Assembly: GCF_016342405.1 (NCBI RefSeq)
Contig: NZ_JAEINN010000003.1
Location: 1-64,000 of the forward strand
Direction of reading: 5' to 3'
DNA: 64,000 bases
From: Maridesulfovibrio ferrireducens
Lineage (GTDB): Bacteria > Desulfobacterota > Desulfovibrionia > Desulfovibrionales > Desulfovibrionaceae
Of this stretch, positions 1,228 through 18,060 are shown one piece after another (the stretch's first letter is position 1; every line of letters begins with the position of its first letter). The notes below the pieces were generated by a model. The model saw only the letters and a list, made by a program, of their open reading frames with translations. It did no database searches and was not told where the DNA came from. The position numbers and the translations under genes were made by a program.

Positions 1228-2817
1228 ATGAAATCAATACAAATTGAAAATTTAAAAAGTCTTGTCAAAACACCTAAGATAGAAATTAAACCTATTACTA
1301 TTCTGGTAGGTAAAAATAGCAGTGGAAAAAGCACCTTCCTGAGAACCTTTCCTCTTTTTAAACAAAGCGTTGAAGAAAACATAAAAGCCCCAATACTTTT
1401 TTGTGGAAACGATGTGGACTTTGGTGATTTTTCTGAAATCATAAATAAGAGCACTAAAAATGACTCTATAATATTCACTATTGAATCAGAAATTGAACAA
1501 GCATCTTTACTAAACAATGCTTATAGATATACCTTTAACTATAGCAAATTCATAAACAGAGATGATAATGAAATTCTTCCTATAAAATTCATATCTAAAA
1601 TAAAAAACAAAGTAAAAAATATCCGTAATACTTATTTAGAATCTTTTGAAATTTCTATAGCGGATCAAAATTTAAACTTTAAATTTAACGAAGACTCGAA
1701 ATTGATTGATCTTAATATCAACAATGAAAGCTTTAAAAAATTTATAGATGACATATATAGTACAAATTCTGGATTAGTACCTAATCTTATAACTAAAATG
1801 TCAATAGAGAAAAATTACTTATTCTCTCTAAGCACGATGTTTCCGCAATTCCAAGAACAGTCTCGTTATGAACGCTTATTGAAAATAATCAAAAAACACG
1901 TCTATAATACAACTAGCAATGAAAATATTGCCGACATTGTGCGCTCCATATCAATAGGTTCCAAATCTTACACATTATCGAGCTGTAAAAACGATTTTCT
2001 AAAAACTAAAACTTGGCTTAAAAGAGCTGAAACTTGGACTACAGAATCCAAAGATTTTCAAAGTGTTAACAATGCCTTATTATTTGAAAACTTTATGAGT
2101 ATAGTAAATTTTATTGGCAACCATTTTAAATCATACTCTCAAAGAATTAACTACATAAGTCCTTTTAGAGCTTCTCCAGAAAGATACTACCGCCATCAAG
2201 AGTTAGCTGTCCATAACATAGATCCGCAAGGTAAAAATACAGCAATATTCCTTGACAACCTAACTTCAAGCCAAAAAAAGAAATTAGAAGAATGGACCGA
2301 CAACAATTTTAATATAAAACTTAAAACAACATACAAATCAGGTCATCTTTCTATTGAACTTAAAGAGAATGAATCTAATTTTTATATAAATATAGCCGAT
2401 ATAGGATTTGGATATTCTCAACTTCTGCCTATTATTATCCAACTTTGGTTCAAAACAACTGAAGATAATAAAGACATAAGCTTTAATACTGGATACGAAA
2501 CATTCGCTATTGAGCAGCCAGAGTTACACTTACACCCCAAAATGATAGGACATTTTACAGACTTACTAGTAAAACTTATATCTTCAAACCGTTTCAAAAA
2601 ATCCAATATTAAACTAATTATCGAAACTCATAGCAAATCCTTTATTAATAGAATTGGTCAGCACATAGCTAAAAAAAATATTACTCCTGACTCAGTAAAT
2701 GTCGTTATATTCGACAATAAAAACGGCTACGAATCAAACATAGACATTGCCAAATTCAATGATAAAGGAATGTTAAAAAACTGGCCTGCTAACTTCTTTC
2801 TTCCGGAGCGGTTTTAA
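1228..2817 (+). CDS. AAA-type (OLD/DUF3696-like) ATPase of a two-gene system
   Basis: A 529-residue SMC/OLD-like AAA ATPase. The Walker A motif GKNSSGKST is at residues 28-36, right after an N-terminal strand pattern typical of DUF3696/AAA_15 proteins (MKSIQIENLKSL). A Walker B segment (FAIEQPELHLHP, about residues 424-435) and a switch histidine segment (LIIETHSKSF) lie near the C-terminus. No nuclease domain is fused; that function seems to reside in the next gene, which starts 2 bases after this stop. Together they form an ATPase plus TOPRIM pair like split OLD nucleases and PARIS (AriA/AriB). There is no clear Shine-Dalgarno before the ATG. The gene is strongly A+T-rich compared with the phage structural genes, which suggests separately acquired cargo. 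The ATPase family is secure; the anti-phage role is inferred from architecture and prophage location. Confidence 0.8.
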   Translation: MKSIQIENLKSLVKTPKIEIKPITILVGKNSSGKSTFLRTFPLFKQSVEENIKAPILFCGNDVDFGDFSEIINKSTKNDSIIFTIESEIEQASLLNNAYRYTFNYSKFINRDDNEILPIKFISKIKNKVKNIRNTYLESFEISIADQNLNFKFNEDSKLIDLNINNESFKKFIDDIYSTNSGLVPNLITKMSIEKNYLFSLSTMFPQFQEQSRYERLLKIIKKHVYNTTSNENIADIVRSISIGSKSYTLSSCKNDFLKTKTWLKRAETWTTESKDFQSVNNALLFENFMSIVNFIGNHFKSYSQRINYISPFRASPERYYRHQELAVHNIDPQGKNTAIFLDNLTSSQKKKLEEWTDNNFNIKLKTTYKSGHLSIELKENESNFYINIADIGFGYSQLLPIIIQLWFKTTEDNKDISFNTGYETFAIEQPELHLHPKMIGHFTDLLVKLISSNRFKKSNIKLIIETHSKSFINRIGQHIAKKNITPDSVNVVIFDNKNGYESNIDIAKFNDKGMLKNWPANFFLPERF

Positions 2818-2818
2818 A

Positions 2819-3958
2819 ATGATTTTTGAAATTGACTCCAGCATATCCAATTTTCTTAAAAATGAGACCGGAAATCGTGATTTAACCATGAAATGTTTAA
2901 AGAAGGTCGAGGCTCTTCTATTAAATGCTAGCGATGGAAAAAATGTTATCTTTTTTGAAGATATTGAAATTATAGAATCATTAATTGACTGCGGAAAATT
3001 TTCAGAACCGACTGGTTATTTCCTTGAATACCTAAGAGAAAACTTTGCATCTACAGGATCATTTATAGAATTAACAAGTAGACACATCAAAATTGTTTTA
3101 GAATGTGAACCCGAAATCATTATTAATGACAAAAACCATACTATAGTAACATTACCTATTTCTAAACTTGATCAATCTTTTTTTGGCAAAAGCGTACTAC
3201 TGACTGAAAATCTGGTCGACGGTAAATTTTATAAAAGAATAACACAATGCTATTGCAATAATTGCGGACAAAATATCGATTTTGATTTTGAACTAAAACA
3301 TGGTGGAGGCCATACCACTGGAACAGTCTTTAACGAGACTTTTAGCAATAAAGATAAAAATTGCTTATGCATTGTTGACTCAGATAAATCTCATCCCGAA
3401 TGTAATTGCAAGGAAACTGCTAAAGCTGTTGTAACTGAATATAATAATTCAGATATAGCTAAATTTATATCAGATTACTATATACTGGAAGTAAAAGAAG
3501 CTGAAAATTTAATCCCACAGGAGGTAGTTGATAAAATAATTGCCCCTCAGCTAATTGATAATTTGGATATTTATAAGAAATTAAGCAACAAAGGCGCACA
3601 ATTTTTTGACTGCAAAAAAGGAATTAATCGTAAATTTCTTATAAAAACTAGAGACACCAAAAAATTAAATTTTTGGAAAGAAGAACTTCAAGGAATTGAT
3701 AATAATGCTGAACAAATTTTTTCTAACATTAATGACAACCCTACAAATTGTACCGGGATCTGCAACGAGTGCCCAAATAAAAGCTGTAGGCAGTTATACT
3801 GGGGTGGGATTGGAAATAAGATTTTAGACAACTCCATTGAGAATATCAATAAAAACGAACATTATTCATTACGTGAAAACATTCAAAAGGAATGGGAAAC
3901 CATTGCCAAGAAAATAATTACGTGGTCAATTGTTCAACCCGAGTATCGATTTATGTAA
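2819..3958 (+). CDS. TOPRIM-type putative nuclease/effector with cysteine clusters
   Basis: A 379-residue protein in one operon with the ATPase. A TOPRIM/DUF4435-like order can be read: acidic N-motif in LLTENLVDGKFY (E130, D134), a glycine turn KHGGGHTTG near 160, the DxD pair in CIVDSDK (D187, D189), then EVKEAENLIP (E227, E229). Inserted into and following this core are cysteine groups: C144/C146/C149, C195/C197, and a cluster near residues 311-323 (CTGICNECPNKSC), which look like zinc sites. In OLD and PARIS systems the TOPRIM partner is the nuclease released or activated by the ATPase on phage sensing. Sequence divergence from DUF4435 is large, so the TOPRIM call is motif-based. The C-terminal zinc module is not known to me in AriB and may define a new variant. 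Confidence 0.55.
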   Translation: MIFEIDSSISNFLKNETGNRDLTMKCLKKVEALLLNASDGKNVIFFEDIEIIESLIDCGKFSEPTGYFLEYLRENFASTGSFIELTSRHIKIVLECEPEIIINDKNHTIVTLPISKLDQSFFGKSVLLTENLVDGKFYKRITQCYCNNCGQNIDFDFELKHGGGHTTGTVFNETFSNKDKNCLCIVDSDKSHPECNCKETAKAVVTEYNNSDIAKFISDYYILEVKEAENLIPQEVVDKIIAPQLIDNLDIYKKLSNKGAQFFDCKKGINRKFLIKTRDTKKLNFWKEELQGIDNNAEQIFSNINDNPTNCTGICNECPNKSCRQLYWGGIGNKILDNSIENINKNEHYSLRENIQKEWETIAKKIITWSIVQPEYRFM

Positions 3959-4093
3959 AAGGTCATCATCCAAAATGAATATTCAGAAAATCATAATTTT
4001 TCGAAAAATTATCTTCTTCATACCCACGATTTTTTTCCACTCAGATCAGAAATGTCTCCGCATAGAGCGTCCGAGACTACATAACGTAGCTAC

Positions 4094-4137
4094 AAAGACT
4101 GAAGCCCGCTGCTCATTGCAAACGGGCTTCAGTCTTT
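4094..4137. terminator. Bidirectional terminator between convergent cargo genes
   Basis: A perfect 15-bp inverted repeat (4094-4108 and 4123-4137) with a 14-base loop. A/T-rich ends on both sides allow it to work in both directions. It lies 136 bases beyond the TOPRIM gene stop and touches the stop codon of the CHAT gene on the other strand. Confidence 0.8.
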
Positions 4138-6283
4138 ATTCAATATTATCAGCAGTGATAGTGATCAATTCTGGATTACCTAACTGAGTATATTTTAAAC
4201 ACTCAGGGAACATAAACTCTTTACGAATATACTCTTGAATATCATCAAAGCTAATACCCGCGGTGCATGCCAAATGTTGAAGAATTTTTTCGTGCCAATC
4301 TGGATGCAAAGGATTAATTTTCATATTTACGAAAAATCTCAATTGTTCAACTTCGTTCGAAGTCCACTCGTACTCTTCCTTCATTGAATCTATCAATTCA
4401 GTATAATAAGACATCTTCAATAAACCAGAAACAAATGATGACCACCTAATATCCTGTTTAAGTTTGAATAGATGTATATATAAAAATGATGAAATACGAA
4501 TAAGCAGTCTTGAGACAAAAATGGCTGACTCTCGAGCAAGTACTGGTAAAGCACTACCAATAACGGTCTTTGCACCAAGCAAGAACATTGCATTAGCGGT
4601 ACTGTAATGATTGTTGTCTATGGGGCATGTGTCACAAACACTTAGAATAACTATTGGAGAAACTTGCACATTACCAATTAGATCGGATACAGAGACTTTT
4701 TCATCTTTAAGTGCCAACACTCCCTCGCCATTATCGTCGTGCCCCCCGTGCATATTGAAAATAGTGATAGCACAGCTATTTTCATTTAACACTTTGATAA
4801 GTTCGTTACAATTGTCTACTTCAACATGCTTAACTTTTATATTAATTATTCCTTCCTCATGATTTATAATTCCTGAACTAGAGCTTAAAAAACCACACGT
4901 TTCTAAACAAGTTTTAAACTGGTTCTTCAAAGGATCAAAATCGTCAAACGAACTTATAACAAGAATTTTCTTAAATGCTTGAGGAGAAAGACCTATATTC
5001 TCTGTATCAAGTAAAACTTTAGACGCTACAACCCCAGGTGAGATATTAACCCGACTGACTTCATCCCTTATCATAAGAGGTAAACCATTGCGATCTAACC
5101 ATTCTATTGGCAAATTAGAAATTAACTTCAAAGAGCAGGTATGATGATTTTTAAAATAATCAAGCCTGTCATCAATATCTACCTCAAACTTAGATATTAG
5201 TAACTTAAACGCTTCATTCATTTTATAACTACGGCCCCTATCAATTTGGCCTATTATTTTTAATAGCGGATAGTAATCTCTAGACAATAATGGCAACTTA
5301 ATATTTGGAACAGCATAGCTAGAAGCACCAACAGCAATTAATTTCTCAATTAAATAACGCTCGGACAAATACTTATCCTTTTCAACATCTCCTGTGGTTC
5401 CAGAATATTGAAGCCTATCTTTTTTAAGATTCTTAATAGCAGCATCTAAACCATCTACATCATCTAAATCATTGTCTCTAAGCTTCTTTTTGCTGTAATT
5501 TGATTTATTTATATGAAATTTAACATCATAAGATAGATCTGAAAGAATAAAGTCATAAATAGGCGCTTTATTATCCCCAAACGAGACATTAGATATAATT
5601 TTAGAACGAATATTGTTTATGAGATTAATACATCCTACAACATTTGATTCACTCCATTCCGCACTGTTGCTAACCTCATTAAAAAGAACTCTCATTGATT
5701 TTAAAACAACTAAATTTGAATGAGTATAAAGAGTTTTTACAAATTCACAATCTGTCCCAATATAATCACTGCGAGATGCCTCTGATACTAATTTCTCAAT
5801 TTCATTTTTAGCATCTTGACAAACTCCACCAATCTTCGAAACTAAACTCTCAATAATATCTCGAAAAGAAATTGCATTAACATCAGAGAAGTTGTATAAA
5901 TCTAAATCCTTACGCGTTGACAAAGTATTAGACATATATAAGACAGGAGCATCAACCATTGAATTAATCTCAGTAATGAAACTCAAAGAATCAACTATCA
6001 CACAATTAATTTGTGATTTATAATGAATAAATTCATCAACACTTTGAATAAACTTAATGCGATACCCACTAGTATGCCCATTAATTCTTTTACAAAGATT
6101 ATTCTCCTTCGAGTCATAAAGTTCATAGCAATCAATAGGTAACTCTAAAACCTTGTTAATAACATCTGCCCGCTCTATCAATTCAACAACGTATTCATTA
6201 TAAAAACTCAAGCTTTTACTCTCTAAAACTATAAAATAAGAAAACATAAGATTATCAGAACTAAAATCTTCGTCACTTAACAT
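4136..6283 (-). CDS. CHAT-domain (caspase-like) protease with long N-terminal region
   Basis: A 715-residue protein. The C-terminal third has the CHAT caspase-like core: a strand then the catalytic histidine in FNMHGGHDDNGEG (H512, with H515 close by), then the catalytic cysteine in ILSVCDTCP (C550), followed by the ANAMFLLGAKTVIGSALPV segment typical of CHAT folds. Residues about 1-430 are mostly helical, without recognised repeats, and probably sense or bind a partner. AAGGAG lies 7 bases before the ATG, and a sigma-70-like promoter sits just after the upstream giant gene's stop. The own promoter, low G+C and position at the end of the late operon are marks of a phage moron expressed from the prophage. 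CHAT proteases act in gasdermin and type III-E CRISPR immunity; a defence or abortive-infection role here is inferred. No gasdermin-like pore protein is adjacent. Confidence 0.75.
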   Translation of the reverse strand: MLSDEDFSSDNLMFSYFIVLESKSLSFYNEYVVELIERADVINKVLELPIDCYELYDSKENNLCKRINGHTSGYRIKFIQSVDEFIHYKSQINCVIVDSLSFITEINSMVDAPVLYMSNTLSTRKDLDLYNFSDVNAISFRDIIESLVSKIGGVCQDAKNEIEKLVSEASRSDYIGTDCEFVKTLYTHSNLVVLKSMRVLFNEVSNSAEWSESNVVGCINLINNIRSKIISNVSFGDNKAPIYDFILSDLSYDVKFHINKSNYSKKKLRDNDLDDVDGLDAAIKNLKKDRLQYSGTTGDVEKDKYLSERYLIEKLIAVGASSYAVPNIKLPLLSRDYYPLLKIIGQIDRGRSYKMNEAFKLLISKFEVDIDDRLDYFKNHHTCSLKLISNLPIEWLDRNGLPLMIRDEVSRVNISPGVVASKVLLDTENIGLSPQAFKKILVISSFDDFDPLKNQFKTCLETCGFLSSSSGIINHEEGIINIKVKHVEVDNCNELIKVLNENSCAITIFNMHGGHDDNGEGVLALKDEKVSVSDLIGNVQVSPIVILSVCDTCPIDNNHYSTANAMFLLGAKTVIGSALPVLARESAIFVSRLLIRISSFLYIHLFKLKQDIRWSSFVSGLLKMSYYTELIDSMKEEYEWTSNEVEQLRFFVNMKINPLHPDWHEKILQHLACTAGISFDDIQEYIRKEFMFPECLKYTQLGNPELITITADNIE

Positions 6284-6339: not shown

Positions 6340-9300
6340 CTAATTCTCCATCACCCGCCTAACAACCAAATTCCGCTTCTCCAAAAGCCCATCAATCTTC
6401 GCCCGTTTCTCATCCTGAGTAAGCTTCCGAGAACGATGAATCTGGCGCATGGCAGTTTCGATCTGGCCGAGTGCGCGGCGTAGCTGATTGTAAGGCTGGC
6501 GTTTAGCAAGAATCTTTCTGTTCTCCGGATCTTTCACCAGAGCTTTGGCTTTAGCCGCTTCGCCAGTTTTTGCGTAGTTCATTACAGTAGAATAAAGTTC
6601 ATCGGCTTCCTGAACCATGTCGTATAATTCTGTCAGGTGGCGGCTATGCCTTGATGGTGTAGACCTGTAGAAGCTTTTGATTATCGGCATGTCGTCTAGA
6701 CGTCTGGACGGCAATTCCGGTGCATCCACCATTTTGCGGGTAACAATGTCCGCCATACTCATCACATAAACACCCAGCGTTCCGAAATAACCATTAACCA
6801 GATGCTCGATACGCTTAGGACTGGTTCCGGTCTTTTCTCCGATTACAGCTGCGGTTTCGCTGGTACGATGATCGCGCTGTGCTCCGGCCTGAAGCCTTTT
6901 CAAACGCATGGGAACGATCGCTCTGCCAGTGAAGAAACTCTTGTCTGCCCACTGCTCCAGAACAGGCGTTACAATCTGCGGAGTGCCTACAGAGAATGTC
7001 TGCGTCAGCATAAACTGAAGACGGTCACGAAGCAGATCCCCATCCTTACCATTCAGCGAATACTCGGTTAACCGTTCCGGCAGAGTCCCGAAAATGGCCC
7101 CGATCTCAAAAGGCTTAGGCATTCTGAAATGCTTATCTTCCACAAAAAAGTGATAGTAATTGTCCCGGTCCCAGTGTTCCAGCTCCTTAAACTCTTCCCG
7201 ATCCCGATTATTAAGATAGAGCAGCACAGAAGCCAGCGCGACCATTGCGCCCTTGGTCATAAATCCGGACGGATTCTCATAAGCCCCTCTGCCCAGTCGA
7301 TTCAGCCCGACCATTCTTGCACCGAAAAACGGAACAGTTTCACAAAGAAATCGTGTGGCCAGCCAATCACCGCCCATGGAATAATCCATGATGTCCTTGG
7401 CTTCATAAGCAGCTTCAAGATGGGTTCCACCTTTTTTCTTAACTCCTTCATAAAGCCGTGCGCGGGTTGCATTCTCAAATGCAGAACCTAAATCCTGCCA
7501 CTTCATCCAGCCCAACTTAGCAAACTTGGCCAACTTTTTCGGAGTGTCGAGGATAGAGTCAGGATCAACTTTGTGCTTCTTTACCAACTTCTCAACCAAC
7601 AGCTTTGCGGCCGCAGGATCATGCCCAAAGGCATAGCCTCCATGAAAAGCTGCTCCGGCGGCCATCATTTTAACGGTGTCTTCATCATTACTAAGAGTTT
7701 TGATTGCGCCCTTAAATGAACCGACCACAGGCACAAACGTTCCAGTGCGATCCACACCCCACGCATGAACCGTATCACGCACAATATTGCGAATCATAAA
7801 ATCAGGAGTGGAAGTAACTCCGGTTGTCAGCATCCGCTTAAACAGCCGGGCTGTTTTCATTCCGAAATTATTCCAGGTCTTCAAGTTTACGGAAGTCAAA
7901 GCCCTGAGCAGGAGCGGATCAGCGATGTGGTAATAAACAGGCTTGCCATCCCGCAGCACGGAAACAACATCTACTGCATCCGGCTTTACCATTCTGAAAA
8001 CAGTCTGCAAGGAATCGCTCTGCGCTTTGGTCATTTTAGCAACAGCGTCAGCATCCCCGTACACCTTCACTAAGGATGATCGCAAAGCCTGTCCTTTCAG
8101 TTGAAGCCCTTCCCACTTAAATTCTGCATTGGTTGCAACCCCGATATTTTCAGCATTGACCATGGCCAGCTCCATGGCTCTATTCTTCACGGAACTGTCG
8201 ATCAAATGCGAAAAGTTGCGAATGATGTTTTCAAACGGATCACCAAGGTTCGAAGTTCCACCCCGTAGCCGGCGAATACCTGAATACTGATTAGCAATTC
8301 CCTTGCTACCGTGTGGAGACTTAACGCTGGACTTCTCTTCACCTGTTTCATTGATACGATAGAAAGGAATATACTCATCATGTTCCCAGAGAGTACGGCC
8401 AGCTGCGTTAATAACTCCGGCATCCTGAGCAAAATCCAGAACCTTAGTTTTGAATGCGATATACTTCTGCTGAACCGCTTCATATTGCGCTTCACGTCCA
8501 GAATTAAGACTGCAAAGTTCATCTATTTCCTCTTCAGTAAACAGATTCTCGCGCCCTTCCGCCATAAGCTTTTTAGCGCGCAGCCCCACCAGCCAACCAG
8601 TGAATCTATCCAGCTCATGAGCAACCGGCTCAAAGATAGTTGCCAGTCCTTCGCCCTCAACATCCATAGCCCCTTCTCGCCAAATCGGTGCGCCATGCTC
8701 TATGACGGCCGCAATCTGATCAGCATGAGAAGTGGACATTCTAGCCGCCACATAAGCGGACTCTTCTAAATCTGTAACTCCGGCCGCCTTATCCAGATCC
8801 TTGAGCGAAGCAAAACGGTCAAACATACCCTGACTAAACTCAGTGGCCATGAAATCACGAATGCGCCCTATGCGATCGCTGATAGTAGTTTTTTCTTTGG
8901 CTTGTCCTATCTTGGCCATAGCAGGCTCACGAACAGGATTTGAACGGGAATAAGAAACGGCTTCAGCTCCCCCTTTCGGTGAAGGAGAAGTTGAACCATC
9001 GCCGTGAACTGTCCAGAAAACAGCATCCGCTACAAGCTTGTTTATTTCACGGCGAGTCAGCGAACCTGGCAGACGTATACGAAGTTTGGCCAGCCATTTC
9101 ATGACGGCATCAACGACCTTACGCCATACACTTTTTTCACGCTGCGTCAGAACTTCATTCTGATCCACCTTTTCAGCAAGCTGGGCCAAGTATTCATGAC
9201 TGGCCAGATCTCTGCCTGAATCAGTGAAAAGGTCATAATCATAATCCAAAGCTATATTTTTAAATTCTTTACTGTGCTTTGCGGCTCTCCCCACCTTACG

Positions 9301-12300
9301 GAGCAGCTGCACATAGTCACTATCACCAAGAAGGCCGCGCAACCCGTGATGCGCTCCCTGTTCGTGCATCCAAAGTTCAACAGCTCGTTTACGCGAGAAA
9401 ACATTCTCCGCAACCATCCAGACCTTTCCAGTCTTAGGATCATTGCAAGCTTCACAATAGCCGCCACCCTGCGCATCAAATGCCGTGCGGATATGTTCCG
9501 GAAGATCTTCGAAAGTGTTGACCACTTCCAGAGGCAACGCGTTTTCAGCTCGTGCCTGTAATTCCTGCACAGCTCCGCGCACGGATCTGACAGAAGTAGG
9601 ATTACGAATAGTAGATGTCTTGGAAAAATGGATTGGATTGCCGTCATGACGTCCTGACGTTTTACCGTCTTGACGGCTGGACGGCTTGCCGTTTTGCTGT
9701 CTGCCATACTCAGCAAGTACGGAAACAAGGGAATCACGGACTTTCTGGATATCTCGGAAGTAACGGCTGGACTGATCGCTTTTACCAAACACAGCCAAAA
9801 CCTTATCAATCATGCGGCGAATTTTACGAGCTACACGGCTAAAAAGCGTAGGTTCTTCAGTTGCCAGTTCAAGCCAGAAATCAGGGTCCATGAACTGTTC
9901 GCCTGAAAAATCAGCGAGAAGTTCTTCGTAGGACTGACTTGAAGTAAGACCTTTTTCACCGGTACTACGCGCCAGTTCATTTATTTCATCATGATATTGT
10001 TTCCAAGAATTGCCCTTACGCTGAGTCTGAGCAATCATGGACAACTTATTATATAAGACAGGCGCGTCTCGTTTCAGATAGTGAACTATCTCATGACCAA
10101 GTATAAGAAGGTGTGGTTGATTTGCATCCGGACGTAGAAAAACAGTATTACTCCAACGAGGCGCATACCCTTCACCGTGGAGTATTCTTTCATCGGAAGC
10201 TATAAAAGCGACTTCCTTTCCAAAAATAGAAGCTATTTTTGAGAGCTGTTCGGGTAAGCCTTTAGAAATTCCTCTCGAAGATTGCTGCTGTGTTCCTTGC
10301 CTATTATCTTCTCTGGCTTGAACGCCTTTTGCTTCTTGCGGCAGGCTAACACTGTTTTCTGTCTTTCCGCTGCGGCCTTGGCCTCCCGCCTTCTGTCGTC
10401 TTCCTCGCAATCCAGATGAATTATCATCGGACGGTCCCCCGGTTTCCAATTCGGCCCCAGACATACTCTTGCGCCTGACTGAATCGCCCTTCGGGTCAAC
10501 TTCAAATATGCTTCCCTCCGGGAAGCTCCTTCCAATTTGTTTTTGAAGTCCTCTTTGGAGACGATCAGCTCTATCGGTTCTTCTGGGGTTTTCATAGGTA
10601 CTCCGGTCTACTGGATCAATTGAACCTCTTTTATCACTGAGTGATGCCGGAAGTCTATCCAGTTCTTGAGCTATCTTTTGAGCTTCTACCTTATGAGAAT
10701 CAACCTTAAACCCAGTCCCGCCATCCATGAGAACTTGCAGCCCTTCGGACAGCTTGGCCGCACTCATTGTAGCTCTCATCCGATTACTTACAGAATAGAA
10801 ATCTCCACCAATGGCTTGAAGCAGCGAACTGTTGAGATAATATTTACCACCTGATCCTTTTGCCTTTGGTGTAAACATCTCATATGAACTTCCTCTTTTT
10901 TGAACTTGCAGCATACCGTCAAAACTTTTGACAATCCCTTCACCGTCTGTTTCATCAAAAAAGGCAAGGACACTTTGAGGGCTTGCCAGAGCTACAGGCT
11001 TGTTGCGCTCAAAATCTTCTGCCTTGAAATCTTCCGGCAAAAGAACCCCAGGCTGATTGCGACCTTCATGATCCGTAAAAGTAATGATCTTGCCTTTGTT
11101 TCCCAGGGCAGCGTAGCCGGCAAGAATATTTCCAGTTGCAATATGTCTCTTTTCTCTTGTTTCTTTCTGTCCAATATCGAAATTAGGAAGAAAGGATTCC
11201 AAGCTATAACTCAATTTAGATATCTGAATCTTACTGGAAGCAGAATCCTGTACACCGGAAGACAGTCTGGAAAGAGATCCAGAATACAATCTGGTTGCAT
11301 CGGTAAGAGCTATTCTTACTTTCCACCGGCTTAACGCTGCGGGGTTGTCAGATTTTCCTTTGCGCTCAATTGAGAGAACAACCCCAGTATGAGTGCCTTC
11401 CTGATTGGATAAAACAACAATTGATCCAGGCGTATACCCTGTTACCATCCTGATTGTTTGATCATATGCAGTCTGAGCGCGATCTAAAGATCTTTCCTGT
11501 ACGTCTGAATTCGTTACCGTATTTTTTATATGGTCAGTATAGGTTGAAAACTCTTCCTTTAATGTAACAAGAGTTTCCCTCGTCTGTCTTACTGCGTGCT
11601 TAACCAAATCAGCAACACTAAGAGTGTCTTCTAAATTATTGGCAGAAGCCAGTTGCTCTTTAACCTGCTTGCTTGAGTATGGCTTCCCTATCTTTTTTAC
11701 ATCCATACGGATAAGTTTAGATTCTCTTTCAAAAGGAGAAGAACCACCTTTCCCCGGTGTAAGGCTCTTTTCACTGAGAGGAATTGCATCAAGCTCTAAG
11801 TGTGACGCCTTCATGCTCGAAACACCGCTACGTTCCAAGTTCTCCATGTATTCACGATACTCTGATTCAAACAGGTCGTAGAATTCCTCTTGCTCCTTAA
11901 CAGGCAAGGCGGGGATTCGACCGGTAACCTTTCTGGCTCCGCCGATTAAATCCTCCTTTCCAAAATTCTTCAAAGGCTCGCCAAGCTTGCGGTGAAGCTC
12001 CCTGTTTTCAGACAACATCTCAGCTATAATTTTGTCACCGTGCTCATTCATAAAATCGAGAGTTTCACTTGAAGAAACAGCAGAATCGCTATCGGCTGTT
12101 GTGCTGGCATTTAGAGAAGCCATTTTCTTTTGCAAAACGGCCGCAGGTCTTTTTTCTGCGGGGATGTCTGCGTTAAGAAGAGTGAATCCCGGCAGCTCAA
12201 CTTGTCCAGTTCTATGGATACGGCCGAGAGTCTGCATAAATGTATCAATATTTTTCTCAGCCTGAGCAATCAACATTCTGCGCGGCCGGCGATCTTTAAA

Positions 12301-15300
12301 CTTCTCGCTTGCATGAAGAGATAGCCCGGTAGAACCTGCACAATTGATAATAACCGCATCAATCGATCCGTCATTAAAACCGTCAATCACGGTTCGCGGA
12401 GCTGGTTTTTTACGCCGGTAATATGTCGGTGCATCCGCCTCACTATAATCTATGGCATGTTCACGTCCGGTAATTTCGTCTACCACATATCCCGAATTCA
12501 CAAGCTCTTGGCGAATGAAATCAATCGGACTCATGGGCAGACCGGACATATCAATACCTTTAATTGTTTTCAGAACTGAATTGAAATGTCTGGTTGCCAA
12601 CGGGCCTAGCTCATCGTCCGTCAGGCTACGGGTTACCTTTTCTCCCATAGGATCACCGACAACAATCTGCCTTGAACGATACAAATACCGTTCGAGAAGA
12701 TCTCCAAAATTAATATCTATAATTTGACCGGGAGCAATTTCGTTATCTTCGGTATAGTTTTTTACCATTGACCCCATGGTATTTGCCAAGGCGATAACGG
12801 GTTTTTCCCCGCGTTTTAAATGCTCTTTTGCCATATCAACAGTTGCCTGGACCTTGAGACAAAGAAGCATCTGATCAATGACATTGTGCATAAGGCTGGT
12901 GAAGTTAGTGCTGTCCGCTCCGGCCTGCCCTATTGAACCGTCACGAAGAACATTTTCTCCGGAAGATTTTAAACCGTTATCTATAACTTCGAGAGATGCG
13001 GACTTAAGGTCATCAAATTCAATAATCCCCTGCATAACTTTGCCAACTCCGTCAGCAAGATCCTTTGATGCAGGAACCGACTTCGTATCAAAAGTCACTC
13101 CATTAAAAGAACGTTCCCTGCGAACATATTGACCGGATTCTGTGAGCATTGTTGCAACAACCTGCTGCATGGGAACGCCACCACTTGCGATAGCTTCTCC
13201 GAGCTGGGAGATATCATCCACGGCTTTAACCATGTCCGTTTTAAAATACAGATCCATCACATCGGGACGTTTTGCGTATGTGGCACTTGAATAAAAAGCA
13301 CCATGAGGACTAACTTGAAGGATATCTCGAATAAGTTTGGAACGAGGAATTTTGCCTTTCGCAGGTTTAGCAGGACTTCCGCCAGCGTTATGACTTTCGT
13401 CCAGAATAAACATAGCTCTTGAAGCTATACCATTAATGAATTGCTGACGAGGATTAGGCTTATTACCAAGAGATTGGAGCTGATTGTAAGTAGTGAAAAC
13501 AACGGAATATTTATCTGTTGCTTCATTCACAATATCCAGCATGAGTTTACGTTTTTTAGCAGGAGAGTGTTTATCAGTATGACTTCCGTCACCTTTTTCA
13601 AAAACACTATCTTTCTTGTCGGTATTTGTAATAAAAATACCATCCTGAGATTCACCAATATCCTCCATGTCACGGATCATATCTCCATAGAGGTTTGGTT
13701 TTTCAGTAAGGAACACAGGGATAATACCATTACGTTTGGCATATCGGATAATGGCAGCGTTAACACGCCCCTTGCCTATCCCCGTCTGGTCACCAATAAT
13801 AAAACCTTTGCCATCCTTGAAGTTGGATATAGCAAGCGCAACCGAGTCAATCTGCTCAGCTGCTAAAACTTTACCCAAACCATCAACGCTATACCCTAAC
13901 TCTTTGGCAACAAAGTTATCAATATTACCATGTTTCTTTTCTAATCTGGAAAGTGCTTCTTCTGTAGCCTGAGCCATATTGCGAGGCGTAAGAACCTGCA
14001 TGGAAGTTTGGGCAGAGGCAGGACTGTAACCAACCTGAAATTGAGTCTCTACCTCTCCATTCCGTACCCGGCTACCGTCAGTGCCCATTCCTCCGCGCTG
14101 AGATCTTCTTCCCTCGGATCCGGATCGTCCTTCCCTCTCGGAATTCCCTGGAGAGGAAACTCGCCCCCTACCAGTGAGAAGTTCTCCGTCATTTGAAGTT
14201 TCAAGGTTTCGTTTTTCTCGATTAGAGTCAGTCCCAGAAGATATCGATTGTCCTTGTTCAGTTTCCCCACTGTATCCCCGAACCTCTCGAACAGAATGCG
14301 CTCCACGAGGTGAGCCGCTTCTATCGGATCTTCCTCCCGTTCCAGCATCAGCTGCATTCTCACCGAGAGAAGAGTCCAGTAATAGGCTTCCGTGGACACT
14401 ATCTCCACTCCCTCGGGAAGATACACTCTTGTTATCATCTGGTCCGTCGGATTTTCTCCCGGCCAGCTCTCCGGAACGGCGTAAAGGTTCCCGATCTTCG
14501 GAAGTCTTGGATTGTCTTGCCAGGCCATGTAATTTCTCCTCAAGTTCTTCAAAGGATTCATAAATATGCGGAAGTTCAGCAGCAGGCTGAGGTCGAGATG
14601 ATTTTCCCCGCCCATCTATCACGATAATATCAATCGGATATGCAGCACCTTGTCTGCTATACATTTTACCGTCGATGGAAAAATGGTCAACTACATTATA
14701 CTCATTAAAAAGAGTTGCATAAAATGCTCTTTGTGTCTGAGCGCGGTACTTCTTAACTCTGGTTGCAGATTCTCCCTTTTTACCGCCAATAATGAGAACG
14801 GCTCGCCCGTCATCTTTCATAGCCTTTAAAGCCTGAAAAACTATTGCGTGATCAAGTTCCTTTGTCCGGTAACGATCGCCAACTCGCCATTGAATAGACT
14901 GCCCGTCTTCTTTTCTTACCCGGCCAAAGGGGGGATTCATAATAACAGAGTCAAAATCTTTACCTGGGAAAAACTCTGTCGCGTCTTCCTTATGGACGTT
15001 CTTAAAATTAAAGAACTTTTCCAGACTTGAAACCCTTTCTTCATCCAACTCATTTACAACAGTGTTCTTTTCACTTGCAGCCAGGGCAAGCATCCCATTA
15101 CCGGCTGTTGGCTCATAAACCGAACTTTTCTCGTTTATTCCTGCAAGTTCTGAGGCGAGATAAGCTATAGGAGCAGGAGTGCTGTAAGCCTGATTTGCAA
15201 CAGAAGTACTAGATCTTACTCCGAGATTCGGCTGTCGCTGATACAAATCTACAAGCATGTTGTATATTTCTATATTTGAAAATTCACCCGAACGCCCGGC

Positions 15301-18060
15301 CTCAACTTTTAGTCTTGCAGTTAGAACCGTTGCAACCTCAAAAACTTCATCGAATTCTTTGGCGGCCTGAGATCCTGGAGCAATAGAATATTCTACCCCT
15401 CTTTTTTTCAGTTCACTTTCAATGAAGTTACGAGCCTCGGTTATTGACTTAAAATTTCGTCCAGACTTCAGTTCCTCAACAACAATATCAACTGTCATAG
15501 ACCTTACATCGTTAGATTCAGGCTCTATAAGTTTATTCTCTTGAAGGCTTTTGTCTCCAATCTCTTCCCTGACGAACTTCTCAAAATAAGGACGTCCCTT
15601 GGGAGACAAGGTTTTCAAGGCTAACTCAGCAAAATCGCGACCGGACTTACCAGCTGCAACAACTTCATCCCATGCTTCTCGCAAAAGCGGCTTAATCTGG
15701 GGCCAAAGAGGATCTGAATTTTCTATCGGTTTAAGTGAAAGGTGACCACTTTGCCCACCAAGAAGATCATTAATTTTAGAAAAGGCCTGGGCTGCTTTAG
15801 TGAGGTGTCCGGCAACTTCCTTTGCTTTCGCTTTAGGATTAACTTGAACATCCGTAAGGGTCTCGACAGTTTCATCCGCCGCTTGCTTGGCAAGAATATC
15901 ATCAACCCAACCTTCCAAGCGAACCCACTTCTCTTTGTCGGCTGTCATCCGTGGATTAAAGTTAGGAGAAACAGTTCTAGTATATGAATCCCTTGTTGCA
16001 ACATCTTTAATCTGAGCTATTTTTTCAAGAACACCCTTGTGCCAGACTTTATATTCCTTTGGTTTTTTTGAGCTACGAGTCTCACGACCTTTCACCTCTT
16101 CAGCTTTTGATGCGGCTTCATCCCAAAACCCCATAAATTCATCTGCACTTGTCTCAGTTGCAAGCCTATCTGCTGGTTGAGCTACACCTTCTTCCTGCTG
16201 CAATTCCTGAACAGCAAGATCAAAAATATCTTCCTGTGCCAGCTCCGGCACTGCTTCAAGTTCTGACGTCTGGACGTCTGGACGGTTTGCCGTCAAGACG
16301 TCTTGCGATCCTGACGCTTCAATGACTTCCGGACTTTCAGAAGGAGAACCTTGTACCCCGTTCCCTTCCTCCAGCTCACGCACAGCAGTGTTCCATGAGT
16401 CTTCCAGTGAACTGTCCCATTCTCTGTTAAAAATAGCTGCTTCATGCTGCTGAGGATCAAAATCTGGATGAGGAACAACCTGCGGCTCAATCGGATCAAA
16501 CATTGTGGAAGCTTCACGGAACTGCTTTTCACGGAAGGTATCAGCGTATCCGGCAAGACCTCCCTTGAATCCCGGCACAACTTCCGGATCCGCACTTCTA
16601 AAAATATCAGCCCCTTCAAACGGGGTATAAACATCCGGCTCCTTTGAAGAAGACAACGAACTTGAATCATCAAACGATGACGGCCGCCATCCTTCACGCA
16701 TTGCCATTTCTCGTTCAATGCGCCCCTCAAGTTCCGGTTCTGGCTTAAACCTGTATCGATCCTGAATATCAGATTTCAAGTCAGTCATCCCCTGCGGAGA
16801 TTCATGCTGAGAATCAATTAAATCTTTAAGCCCAAAACCTTTTTCTGTTTCTTTGCCTAAACTCTTTTCCTGCTTCCCATAAAACTCACTCATTTTTTGT
16901 GCAGGAGTACGGGTATCAGGCGCAGCGGCTTTTTCTAGCTGAAGACTCTTTTCCCCATCCAGCAGGTCAACAGTCATCCCCTGTTTAACCTGTTCAATGC
17001 TGGCCATCATCTTTTCATCAGAAGCTTTTGCTTCCTCCGACAATCCGGCAGGGCCGGACATGACCGAACCGCCTGCGCCTGTCAGTGCGGCCGGACCAAT
17101 AACGTTCACGCCCTCTTTGGCGGCCTGTTTCACACGCTCAAAAACACCGGGCTTCATTTCTCCGGTCGTTATGTAATGAGCAAGATCCTTTGAAATAGAT
17201 TCAGCCGGTTCTTCAGCCCATTCGCTTATTCCTTCAACAGCTCCGGAAGTGACATGCTTAGCAGTTTTGGCAGCAACACCTGGTCCCGCTTTGGAGAACA
17301 TTTTTCCAAAGGAAATTGCATTCAACCCTGCACTGGCCAAAGCCATCATTTCACCGGCGCGAGCTGCTTCCTTTTCACTTCCGCCTTTCTCCAAAACTTC
17401 ACGGTATGTACTGGTTCCTTCCAGCGCACCACCGCCAGCTCCAGCTCCGAGAGCCTGACCGATTCGCGCCAGCCGCTCTAAAACTTGCGGGGTTAGACTC
17501 ATAGCCTTACCACCAACCTGAACGACCTTCCCCACAGCCGCACCGGGAATCATAGCCGCACCAAGAGAAGGCGCAAGATTACCAACCTGATATCCCCACC
17601 AGTCGCCACGGGCTAAAAGTGACGGATCATCCATAACATTGCCCTGTAAACGTTTAGGAGCTGCATAGGATTCGCGAACAGGCTTGTAATAATCAGCGAT
17701 AGACTGACCGGCTTCGGCAACAGAATCACTTCCAACGCGATTGCCCAGCCACTGCATACCACCACCGAAAGATTCACCTAGTCCGGCTTGGCCGGCAGCA
17801 ACACCACGCCCCATTTCAACAACAGGAGCGACAAGAGGATCTAGCATTCCGAATCCATATCCGGCAGTTTCATCCGTTTGTGAGTCGGCTGGAATTAGTC
17901 CAGCACTATTCGAGCTTGTCGACTCAAAAGAATAAACCGGACTTCCATTTTCAGGAGAGTCCGGCATTAAATTCTTTCTATTTCCTTCAGCTTGAAGTTC
18001 GCTGACAGCCTGATCGAAAAGTTTATTCATATCCATATCAGCCACCATATCCCCGTTCAC
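6340..18060 (-). CDS. Giant polyvalent phage protein: MTase, SNF2/strawberry-notch helicase, peptidase-like motifs, LPD38-like
   Basis: A 3906-residue protein of the polyvalent (DarB-like) class thought to be packaged and injected with phage DNA. In order: residues 70-340 are Gly/Ala-rich and hydrophobic, as in membrane-active ejection proteins; an N6-adenine methyltransferase has EPTAGNGM near 983 and NPPFG near 1042; a Ser/Gly/Arg-rich linker spans about 1178-1337; a strawberry-notch-type helicase has GDQTGIGKGR near 1428, DESH near 1553 and GRIHRTGQ near 1947; a second low-complexity linker spans about 2489-2609; a zincin-like GHEIVHYL lies at about 2655-2662; HEQGAHHGLR begins near 2899; and an LPD38-like stretch (TPDFMIRNIVRDTVHAW) starts near 3420. 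It likely protects incoming DNA from restriction and remodels the host early in infection. The N-terminus overlaps the upstream virion gene by 23 bases. Two other genes appear overprinted in its linkers. Confidence 0.85.
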   Translation of the reverse strand: MNGDMVADMDMNKLFDQAVSELQAEGNRKNLMPDSPENGSPVYSFESTSSNSAGLIPADSQTDETAGYGFGMLDPLVAPVVEMGRGVAAGQAGLGESFGGGMQWLGNRVGSDSVAEAGQSIADYYKPVRESYAAPKRLQGNVMDDPSLLARGDWWGYQVGNLAPSLGAAMIPGAAVGKVVQVGGKAMSLTPQVLERLARIGQALGAGAGGGALEGTSTYREVLEKGGSEKEAARAGEMMALASAGLNAISFGKMFSKAGPGVAAKTAKHVTSGAVEGISEWAEEPAESISKDLAHYITTGEMKPGVFERVKQAAKEGVNVIGPAALTGAGGSVMSGPAGLSEEAKASDEKMMASIEQVKQGMTVDLLDGEKSLQLEKAAAPDTRTPAQKMSEFYGKQEKSLGKETEKGFGLKDLIDSQHESPQGMTDLKSDIQDRYRFKPEPELEGRIEREMAMREGWRPSSFDDSSSLSSSKEPDVYTPFEGADIFRSADPEVVPGFKGGLAGYADTFREKQFREASTMFDPIEPQVVPHPDFDPQQHEAAIFNREWDSSLEDSWNTAVRELEEGNGVQGSPSESPEVIEASGSQDVLTANRPDVQTSELEAVPELAQEDIFDLAVQELQQEEGVAQPADRLATETSADEFMGFWDEAASKAEEVKGRETRSSKKPKEYKVWHKGVLEKIAQIKDVATRDSYTRTVSPNFNPRMTADKEKWVRLEGWVDDILAKQAADETVETLTDVQVNPKAKAKEVAGHLTKAAQAFSKINDLLGGQSGHLSLKPIENSDPLWPQIKPLLREAWDEVVAAGKSGRDFAELALKTLSPKGRPYFEKFVREEIGDKSLQENKLIEPESNDVRSMTVDIVVEELKSGRNFKSITEARNFIESELKKRGVEYSIAPGSQAAKEFDEVFEVATVLTARLKVEAGRSGEFSNIEIYNMLVDLYQRQPNLGVRSSTSVANQAYSTPAPIAYLASELAGINEKSSVYEPTAGNGMLALAASEKNTVVNELDEERVSSLEKFFNFKNVHKEDATEFFPGKDFDSVIMNPPFGRVRKEDGQSIQWRVGDRYRTKELDHAIVFQALKAMKDDGRAVLIIGGKKGESATRVKKYRAQTQRAFYATLFNEYNVVDHFSIDGKMYSRQGAAYPIDIIVIDGRGKSSRPQPAAELPHIYESFEELEEKLHGLARQSKTSEDREPLRRSGELAGRKSDGPDDNKSVSSRGSGDSVHGSLLLDSSLGENAADAGTGGRSDRSGSPRGAHSVREVRGYSGETEQGQSISSGTDSNREKRNLETSNDGELLTGRGRVSSPGNSEREGRSGSEGRRSQRGGMGTDGSRVRNGEVETQFQVGYSPASAQTSMQVLTPRNMAQATEEALSRLEKKHGNIDNFVAKELGYSVDGLGKVLAAEQIDSVALAISNFKDGKGFIIGDQTGIGKGRVNAAIIRYAKRNGIIPVFLTEKPNLYGDMIRDMEDIGESQDGIFITNTDKKDSVFEKGDGSHTDKHSPAKKRKLMLDIVNEATDKYSVVFTTYNQLQSLGNKPNPRQQFINGIASRAMFILDESHNAGGSPAKPAKGKIPRSKLIRDILQVSPHGAFYSSATYAKRPDVMDLYFKTDMVKAVDDISQLGEAIASGGVPMQQVVATMLTESGQYVRRERSFNGVTFDTKSVPASKDLADGVGKVMQGIIEFDDLKSASLEVIDNGLKSSGENVLRDGSIGQAGADSTNFTSLMHNVIDQMLLCLKVQATVDMAKEHLKRGEKPVIALANTMGSMVKNYTEDNEIAPGQIIDINFGDLLERYLYRSRQIVVGDPMGEKVTRSLTDDELGPLATRHFNSVLKTIKGIDMSGLPMSPIDFIRQELVNSGYVVDEITGREHAIDYSEADAPTYYRRKKPAPRTVIDGFNDGSIDAVIINCAGSTGLSLHASEKFKDRRPRRMLIAQAEKNIDTFMQTLGRIHRTGQVELPGFTLLNADIPAEKRPAAVLQKKMASLNASTTADSDSAVSSSETLDFMNEHGDKIIAEMLSENRELHRKLGEPLKNFGKEDLIGGARKVTGRIPALPVKEQEEFYDLFESEYREYMENLERSGVSSMKASHLELDAIPLSEKSLTPGKGGSSPFERESKLIRMDVKKIGKPYSSKQVKEQLASANNLEDTLSVADLVKHAVRQTRETLVTLKEEFSTYTDHIKNTVTNSDVQERSLDRAQTAYDQTIRMVTGYTPGSIVVLSNQEGTHTGVVLSIERKGKSDNPAALSRWKVRIALTDATRLYSGSLSRLSSGVQDSASSKIQISKLSYSLESFLPNFDIGQKETREKRHIATGNILAGYAALGNKGKIITFTDHEGRNQPGVLLPEDFKAEDFERNKPVALASPQSVLAFFDETDGEGIVKSFDGMLQVQKRGSSYEMFTPKAKGSGGKYYLNSSLLQAIGGDFYSVSNRMRATMSAAKLSEGLQVLMDGGTGFKVDSHKVEAQKIAQELDRLPASLSDKRGSIDPVDRSTYENPRRTDRADRLQRGLQKQIGRSFPEGSIFEVDPKGDSVRRKSMSGAELETGGPSDDNSSGLRGRRQKAGGQGRSGKTENSVSLPQEAKGVQAREDNRQGTQQQSSRGISKGLPEQLSKIASIFGKEVAFIASDERILHGEGYAPRWSNTVFLRPDANQPHLLILGHEIVHYLKRDAPVLYNKLSMIAQTQRKGNSWKQYHDEINELARSTGEKGLTSSQSYEELLADFSGEQFMDPDFWLELATEEPTLFSRVARKIRRMIDKVLAVFGKSDQSSRYFRDIQKVRDSLVSVLAEYGRQQNGKPSSRQDGKTSGRHDGNPIHFSKTSTIRNPTSVRSVRGAVQELQARAENALPLEVVNTFEDLPEHIRTAFDAQGGGYCEACNDPKTGKVWMVAENVFSRKRAVELWMHEQGAHHGLRGLLGDSDYVQLLRKVGRAAKHSKEFKNIALDYDYDLFTDSGRDLASHEYLAQLAEKVDQNEVLTQREKSVWRKVVDAVMKWLAKLRIRLPGSLTRREINKLVADAVFWTVHGDGSTSPSPKGGAEAVSYSRSNPVREPAMAKIGQAKEKTTISDRIGRIRDFMATEFSQGMFDRFASLKDLDKAAGVTDLEESAYVAARMSTSHADQIAAVIEHGAPIWREGAMDVEGEGLATIFEPVAHELDRFTGWLVGLRAKKLMAEGRENLFTEEEIDELCSLNSGREAQYEAVQQKYIAFKTKVLDFAQDAGVINAAGRTLWEHDEYIPFYRINETGEEKSSVKSPHGSKGIANQYSGIRRLRGGTSNLGDPFENIIRNFSHLIDSSVKNRAMELAMVNAENIGVATNAEFKWEGLQLKGQALRSSLVKVYGDADAVAKMTKAQSDSLQTVFRMVKPDAVDVVSVLRDGKPVYYHIADPLLLRALTSVNLKTWNNFGMKTARLFKRMLTTGVTSTPDFMIRNIVRDTVHAWGVDRTGTFVPVVGSFKGAIKTLSNDEDTVKMMAAGAAFHGGYAFGHDPAAAKLLVEKLVKKHKVDPDSILDTPKKLAKFAKLGWMKWQDLGSAFENATRARLYEGVKKKGGTHLEAAYEAKDIMDYSMGGDWLATRFLCETVPFFGARMVGLNRLGRGAYENPSGFMTKGAMVALASVLLYLNNRDREEFKELEHWDRDNYYHFFVEDKHFRMPKPFEIGAIFGTLPERLTEYSLNGKDGDLLRDRLQFMLTQTFSVGTPQIVTPVLEQWADKSFFTGRAIVPMRLKRLQAGAQRDHRTSETAAVIGEKTGTSPKRIEHLVNGYFGTLGVYVMSMADIVTRKMVDAPELPSRRLDDMPIIKSFYRSTPSRHSRHLTELYDMVQEADELYSTVMNYAKTGEAAKAKALVKDPENRKILAKRQPYNQLRRALGQIETAMRQIHRSRKLTQDEKRAKIDGLLEKRNLVVRRVMEN
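10233..10595 (-). CDS. Overprinted gene nested in the giant gene, linker 2
   Basis: A 120-residue reading frame wholly inside the giant gene, shifted by +1. Its ATG is preceded by CCGGAG five bases upstream, a good ribosome-binding site. The product has a balanced, natural-looking composition: Lys/Glu-rich helices, a GPNWKPGDRPMIIH turn-strand segment near residues 47-60 and a basic C-terminal half. In contrast, the giant's own frame here (residues about 2489-2609) is low-complexity Ser/Gly/Arg/Gln, which suggests the linker is free to vary while the nested frame is constrained. The domain is not recognised. Same strand and promoter as the giant gene, so expression would be co-transcribed and independently initiated. 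The call rests on composition plus the ribosome-binding site. Confidence 0.6.
   Translation of the reverse strand: MKTPEEPIELIVSKEDFKNKLEGASRREAYLKLTRRAIQSGARVCLGPNWKPGDRPMIIHLDCEEDDRRREAKAAAERQKTVLACRKKQKAFKPEKIIGKEHSSNLREEFLKAYPNSSQK
14049..14528 (-). CDS. Overprinted gene nested in the giant gene, linker 1
   Basis: A 159-residue frame nested in the giant gene in the same +1 register as the other nested gene. I chose the ATG at 14528 because a perfect GAGGAG (14536-14541) lies 7 bases before it; the frame is open further upstream to 14615 but without such a site. The protein looks real: Trp/Pro-containing start (MAWQDNPRLPKIGNLY), then helices such as LLSVRMQLMLEREEDP and HLVERILFERFGD, with ordinary residue proportions. 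The giant's frame across the same bases (residues about 1178-1337) is a Ser/Gly/Arg/Asp-rich linker between methyltransferase and helicase. No family recognised. Its position inside a methyltransferase-helicase protein suggests, but does not show, a partner role in anti-restriction or ejection. Confidence 0.7.
   Translation of the reverse strand: MAWQDNPRLPKIGNLYAVPESWPGENPTDQMITRVYLPEGVEIVSTEAYYWTLLSVRMQLMLEREEDPIEAAHLVERILFERFGDTVGKLNKDNRYLLGLTLIEKNETLKLQMTENFSLVGGEFPLQGIPRGKDDPDPREEDLSAEEWALTVAGYGMER

Follow-up and report, generated by a model that had tools for sequence, protein, structure and literature searches.

The giant gene and its neighbourhood

The window analyzed here is a stretch of 64,000 nucleotides of Maridesulfovibrio ferrireducens (contig NZ_JAEINN010000003.1, positions 1 to 64,000), and all unqualified coordinates refer to it. 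Its minus strand carries a giant gene in which an N6-adenine methyltransferase is fused to an SF2 (SWI2/SNF2-type) helicase, the architecture that defines DarB-like proteins (Table 1). Among the PHROG families of DNA methyltransferases, the methyltransferase has matches of up to E 9e-9, its scores for Pfam Eco57I and N6_Mtase falling below the curated cut-offs, and the giant carries an LPD38 domain at its C-terminus. In a helicase tree, the nearest kin of the window's copy are found in the Desulfovibrionaceae. Nearby genes on the same strand match portal, major head, internal virion and tail fibre families, and we therefore consider the giant a polyvalent protein of a prophage; from this neighbourhood and the DarB precedent, we infer that it is probably packaged in the virion. 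The prophage genes are adjoined by a low-GC stretch (1228-6283, ~31-34%) encoding an AAA_15/AAA_21 ATPase, an unassigned protein of 379 aa, and one whose CHAT match is sub-threshold; this stretch is possibly a defence island.

Table 1 Features of the giant gene and its nested frames.
Feature	Coordinates	Strand	Description
Giant polyvalent gene	6340..18060	(-)	3906 aa, GTG start, contains the nested gene
Methyltransferase region of the giant	14617..15222	(-)	~residues 947-1148, NPPF motif; PHROG matches
Shine-Dalgarno-like GAGGAG	14536..14541	(-)	7 nt upstream of the nested ATG
Putative nested (overprinted) gene	14049..14528	(-)	159 aa + TAG stop, ATG start, +1 register
Ser/Gly/Arg-rich linker, giant's own frame	14049..14528	(-)	~residues 1178-1337
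Strawberry-notch-type helicase of the giant	11824..13866	(-)	AAA_34 residues 1399-1667, Helicase_C_4 residues 1859-2079
GGAG	10601..10604	(-)	5 nt before the second nested ATG; also in G001
Second nested frame	10233..10595	(-)	120 aa, +1 register, second Ser/Gly/Arg linker, after the helicase

A nested frame in the methyltransferase-helicase linker

The original prediction held that a 159-codon frame, preceded by GAGGAG, is overprinted in the +1 register on a Ser/Gly/Arg-rich linker of the giant. We re-found this frame with its coordinates, register, ATG, stop codon and upstream GAGGAG, as well as the biased composition of the giant's frame over the same stretch. The nested frame lies wholly within the giant, between the methyltransferase and the strawberry-notch helicase. 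The open +1 run continues upstream to an ATG at 14615 (188 aa); as this extension covers the conserved tail of the methyltransferase, and the alignment of relatives begins at about 14528, we prefer the start at 14528.

Five +1 runs in the giant reach 80 codons or more. Two of them are stop-free in the close relative G001, i.e. the nested frame and a run at 10236-10607 that holds the second nested frame. The other three (giant codons 429-588, 2751-2935 and 3180-3285) contain 5, 2 and 2 stops in G001, respectively, and were rejected as chance runs. A search with the nested product retrieved full-length nested homologues, one on a viral contig (64% identity) and one in a genome of the same genus (66% identity; 2 of 148 genomes matched, including the window's own).

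Selection on the nested frame

In order to compare the two frames, we used 40 independent pairs of giants from 913 eligible ones, with nested identities of 0.5-0.97, a sample biased towards conserved copies, and aligned the linkers on the host frame so as not to favour the nested frame. Substitutions at host codon positions 1, 2 and 3 numbered 1802, 1125 and 977, respectively, with position 1 as the maximum in all 40 pairs; in the 22 gap-free pairs, the corresponding numbers were 926, 514 and 431. The helicase of the same pairs showed 1589, 1050 and 4483 substitutions. In 39 of the 40 pairs, conservation was higher in the nested frame than in the host frame. Isolated changes that were silent solely in the nested frame numbered 586, and those silent solely in the host frame 130; per opportunity, the former were 5.3 times as frequent, and dN/dS-like ratios were 0.12-0.23 for the nested frame and 0.6-1.2 for the host frame. 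We also scanned along the giants for segments with inverted periodicity, defined as a host position 3 share below 30% of all changes. Such inversion was found in 155 of 4457 segments, 153 of which fall in the methyltransferase-helicase linker and come from 34 of the 40 pairs; the remaining two, located elsewhere, belong to a single pair.

The locus of the window behaves in the same way. Its linker is 65-66% identical to those of relatives in the nested frame and 42-45% identical in the host frame; e.g., with the homologous locus L003, 104 of 158 nested residues and 66 of 159 host residues are identical. Against G001, the share of changes at host position 3 is 0.17 over codons 1201-1300 and 0.30 over codons 2501-2600, and it is at least 0.43 in all other segments.

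For more distant comparisons, profiles were built for four divergent groups, A-D (the window with Desulfovibrio; alphaproteobacterial with related viral copies; freshwater viral; cyanobacterial), and matched using HHalign. The nested-frame profiles matched one another with probabilities of 80.9-98.0%, whereas those of the same regions reached at most 0.1% in the giant's frame and 0.5% in the +2 frame. A short group E (~95-110 aa) is more weakly linked, at 3.5% to the window's group and 28-73.7% to the others. The substitution pattern across homologous giants favours the nested frame over the giant's own and indicates that the nested frame is under purifying selection, as predicted. None of the outcomes that would have refuted the prediction was observed, as nested homologues exist, the close relative G001 is free of nested stops, and the substitutions do not favour the frame of the giant. 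Judged from the sequences, it is almost certainly a real, translated gene.

Occurrence in related giants

To determine whether the nested frame is still present in giants that have diverged, we gathered distant giants with the helicase alone as the query, i.e. with no selection for the nested frame. Among the 159 loci retrieved, 13 had less than 1500 nt upstream of the helicase match and were dropped. Of the 146 retained, 144 were not picked by the nested frame, while the window and L003 were picked because of it; the viral relatives in this set, and in every count made over it, are the best 80 of 175. In 136 of the 146 loci, the linker holds a +1 frame of 90 codons or more, and in 16 a +2 frame of this length, the median frame length being 132 codons for +1 and 40 for +2. 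In control stretches, +1 frames of at least 90 codons occur in 11 of 146 loci for the helicase and in 21 for the methyltransferase. Antisense frames of this length are frequent as well, with 83, 87 and 58 of 146 loci for the three frames of the linker and 98, 29 and 15 for those of the helicase, so frame length alone is no proof of a gene. Four of the 136 long +1 frames (L103, L105, L151 and L156) resemble arginine-rich chance frames; these loci and L004 were left out of the start-signal, pair and profile work, and L014 out of later steps. At a similarity of ~80%, 90 non-redundant copies were obtained, of which 88 were used for codon shuffling.

Frames were classified by eye as family-like or not. 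On this basis, a Bacteroides phage, plasmids of cyanobacteria and one of Thalassospira (L016, L164, L166-L170 and L185) have the nested frame, and an Acinetobacter phage as well as a further five plasmids (L017, L165 and L171-L174) do not. Across several phyla, the frame recurs at the equivalent position in bacterial genomes as well as on phages and plasmids, e.g. on pAQ6 of Picosynechococcus PCC 7002 (NC_010480, complement 100507..101013), where it lies within SYNPCC7002_RS15125. The original prediction treated the host as a packaged phage protein; since plasmid and cyanobacterial methyltransferase-helicase copies also harbor the nested gene, it is specific neither to phages nor to a packaged protein. 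Single cyanobacterial genomes can encode more than one paralogous giant, all of them with a nested frame, such as Nodosilinea LEGE 07298 (L115, L122, L127 and L132) and N. nodulosa PCC 7104 (L119 and L123). Dyads without the nested family frame were found in the Acinetobacter phage, Persicobacter, Vogesella, Yersinia ruckeri, Xanthomonas, Pseudomonas putida and Competibacter, indicating that the dyad can manage without the nested gene. In the helicase tree, in which L016 and L170 have very long branches and 2 of the 11 "none" labels (L154 and L158, linkers unseen) were given by kinship, the copies lacking the frame group together and at least seven changes of the nested label are needed, which may reflect repeated loss or misassigned labels.

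As expected of a gene that normal annotation would overlook, the nested gene is listed in one of eight nested-positive public records, among which the plasmid gene tables are incomplete. The sole annotated copy is WP_230844304.1, encoded at 3644-4093 of plasmid pGMOR1 of Gloeobacter morelensis (L164). There, RefSeq starts a helicase gene that overlaps the end of the nested gene (ATGA), which shortens the giant, although the giant frame is open throughout. We therefore rejected an unfused three-gene arrangement for this plasmid and regard the copy as nested, merely annotated otherwise. When genomes were searched with the nested family, 2 of 395 gave a match, a lower bound because G282, taken as L101 with a nested-type frame, was missed. 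No stand-alone copy was recognized outside the methyltransferase-helicase linker in searches that have limited power for a family evolving this fast. One sequence, MT837539, matched the first nested frame weakly (E 0.4) and was set aside, and a second match in G378 (L177, E 0.004) sits among unrelated frames. No description of the nested gene was found in the open-access literature covered, including the available text of PMC5512222 and PMC3364912. On the comparisons above, we consider the nested gene a member of an apparently new, widespread family located out of frame (+1) in the methyltransferase-helicase linker of mobile-element giants.

The nested product and its possible function

The suggestion that the nested product looks like a folded protein agrees with AlphaFold2 models based on the family alignment, which gave a mean pLDDT of 89.9 and a pTM of 0.87 for the window's protein, and 94.4 and 0.86, respectively, for a viral relative. 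Both models predict a mixed alpha/beta structure with a helical core. The window's protein is acidic (pI 4.49, net charge -13), as is the family (median pI 4.55, 83 of 88 members below 6). A shared sequence pattern begins with W-x-P near the start, followed by a hydrophobic strand ending in P, and continues with L-T-x-x-x-Y-x-x-L-L-x-x-R, the helical core, F-P and a terminal L-x-x-W-L. The product is thus predicted to be a compact acidic alpha/beta protein of ~95-180 residues. The window's protein has no match in Pfam, PHROGs, NCBIfam or PADLOC, and comparison of 57 and 40 family members with described families returned isolated single-member matches only (E 0.0007-0.01). Foldseek searches with both models retrieved no solved or viral structure at E ≤0.001, which leaves a new fold unproven; the best VIA-align Z value was 2.3 for one model, and the other gave no match.

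All recognized copies lie between two DNA-acting modules, in phages and conjugative plasmids, and a partner of the methyltransferase-helicase dyad is therefore the simplest reading of the nested protein. Made beside the dyad, the small protein may help assemble the methyltransferase-helicase or restrain its DNA-binding surfaces until transfer, and its acidity would suit a DNA-mimic-like clamp or a contact with such surfaces. Given a real gene, we put the chance of a dyad partner at about even on the basis of position and co-occurrence; the reading is limited by the dyads that lack the gene and by the weakness of the searches for stand-alone copies.

Alternatively, the gene could be real and its product act apart from the dyad, e.g. 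as a counter-defence protein for which the linker is a safe, co-inherited site. Known DNA-mimic antirestriction proteins are acidic, as are the nested proteins, and dyads without the nested gene exist. Other domains of polyvalent proteins act separately, according to the available text of PMC5512222. Against a separate role stands the restriction of all recognized copies to the linker, within the reach of the searches noted above. We view a separate function as possible, though not probable, and retain the dyad partner as our working interpretation.

Proposed expression from the message of the giant

A Shine-Dalgarno match (at least 4 nt, located 4-11 nt from the ATG) precedes the first ATG of the open run in 72 of the 90 non-redundant copies, compared to 15.3% of the remaining +1 ATGs of the giants (n = 6665). 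AAGGAG at a fixed short spacing is common among the nested copies. In a minority of copies, including that of the window, the first ATG of the run differs from the favoured start. The Bacteroides phage copy shows no Shine-Dalgarno motif; Bacteroidota make little use of such motifs, and their absence is expected there. In the proposed mechanism, the ribosome would bind the internal Shine-Dalgarno sequence on the mRNA of the giant and start at the nested ATG, such that one message yields both the small protein and the giant.

Programmed frameshifting from the giant could instead generate a truncated methyltransferase-nested fusion and no free small protein. The nested frame is entered just past the methyltransferase, and the AAGGAG-type signals before its ATG are of a kind that can stimulate frameshifting as well as initiation. 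However, the open run itself begins with an ATG in 29 of the 90 copies (counting the ATG at 14615 of the window, which is not the proposed start), and the first ATG follows the preceding stop within 5 codons in 67 of 90, thus confining any frameshift site to a very short stretch in most copies. The spacing between Shine-Dalgarno match and ATG, 4-11 nt by the criterion used, is also typical of initiation. We consider frameshifting very improbable.

It is similarly hard to believe that the giant is not translated through the linker and that methyltransferase, nested protein and helicase are three products, the open host frame being incidental. The Gloeobacter annotation has this form, the methyltransferase and helicase of Persicobacter are two genes, and those of L126, a Leptolyngbya MAG, lie in different frames. 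Nevertheless, both modules share one continuous frame in 140 of the 146 loci, again with the best 80 of 175 viral relatives. Moreover, when nested codons were re-chosen synonymously at 88 loci, a mean of 6.30 stops per locus was expected in the giant frame across the nested span; none was present at any of the 88 loci, indicating that both frames are kept. The original prediction that the nested frame is selected thus agrees with the substitution data, but its companion claim of an unselected linker does not fit a host frame that is stop-free throughout. Its overall reading, i.e. a selected overprinted gene in a weakly constrained linker, is supported. As a separate observation, an indel in L126 (3389-4915 and 4326-10304) gives the nested frame and the helicase the same phase, which may represent a defect, an assembly error or a true variant; we read L126 (frame-shifted) and L153 (broken helicase frame) as isolated defects.

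Random reordering of host codons left the nested span open in the +1 register in 0 of 500 shuffles for the locus of the window and in a median of 1.2% over the 88 loci. Although the open +1 frame survives a median of 17% of synonymous-only host shuffles, a weaker null, and GC-rich linkers with long arginine-rich chance frames exist (the four loci named above), a chance open frame arising from low-complexity linker composition is scarcely credible given the conservation of nested over host residues in nearly all pairs, the inverted codon periodicity, the profile matches across groups, the confidently predicted fold and the breakage of the three other long +1 runs in G001. We conclude that 14049-14528(-) is very probably a genuine overprinted gene with internal initiation.

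A second nested frame and the origin of the arrangement

The second nested frame, in the other Ser/Gly/Arg linker of the giant, is stop-free and 56% identical in G001, where its start signal is retained, and host third-position change between the window and G001 is lowered over it. It had no match in the viral, phage and plasmid collections, and is therefore treated as a lineage-specific case known from a single pair. In G532, a stretch of 50 aa matches it weakly (38%, E 4.5e-4); this match was set aside, there being no sign of such a giant there.

As the first nested protein is predicted to be folded and looks older, whereas the linker is featureless, the comparison suggests that the linker is the newcomer and the nested frame the older of the two. 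Tentatively, the giant may have arisen from three ancestral genes, for a methyltransferase, a small acidic protein and a helicase, that became one polypeptide when the middle one was translated in a second frame, with the small protein staying encoded as an obligate third antirestriction part, and with linker-nested genes as a recurrent design of polyvalent giants, an element drawn from the presence of a second nested gene in the other linker. We regard this scenario as speculative and rather unlikely as a whole.

Comparison with known systems

The giant shares the architecture of the DarB-type dyad of polyvalent proteins, described as an adenine methyltransferase fused to a SWI2/SNF2-type helicase in the available text of Iyer et al. 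2017 (PMC5512222); that text mentions no nested gene and does not contain the word "overlap". The helicase is of the strawberry-notch kind here and of the SNF2 type in P1 DarB, and a 177-codon +1 run of P1 DarB (codons 647-823) is Arg/Ser-rich. P1 also encodes Ulx (146 aa, annotated as antirestriction), which resembles the nested protein in its size and in its position beside a methyltransferase-helicase gene, darB, but is a separate gene and not nested. Ulx was rejected as a stand-alone homologue of the nested family (HHalign probability 0.3%). The nested gene, which annotation mostly omits, may be an overlooked part of a common counter-restriction machine, and the linkers of polyvalent giants would merit a systematic scan of codon periodicity.

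Overprinted genes are usually regarded as short, young, poorly folded and limited to a few relatives. Precedents include E in D and B in A of phiX174 and the bacterial comS inside srfA. Like these, the candidate described here would be a small out-of-frame protein encoded wholly within a larger gene and provided with its own start. Unlike them, its product is predicted to be well folded and is found across phyla, while the outer frame is weakly constrained filler. The nested gene looks old and folded and is shared by cyanobacterial genomes, plasmids and phages, and the two frames have exchanged their usual roles.
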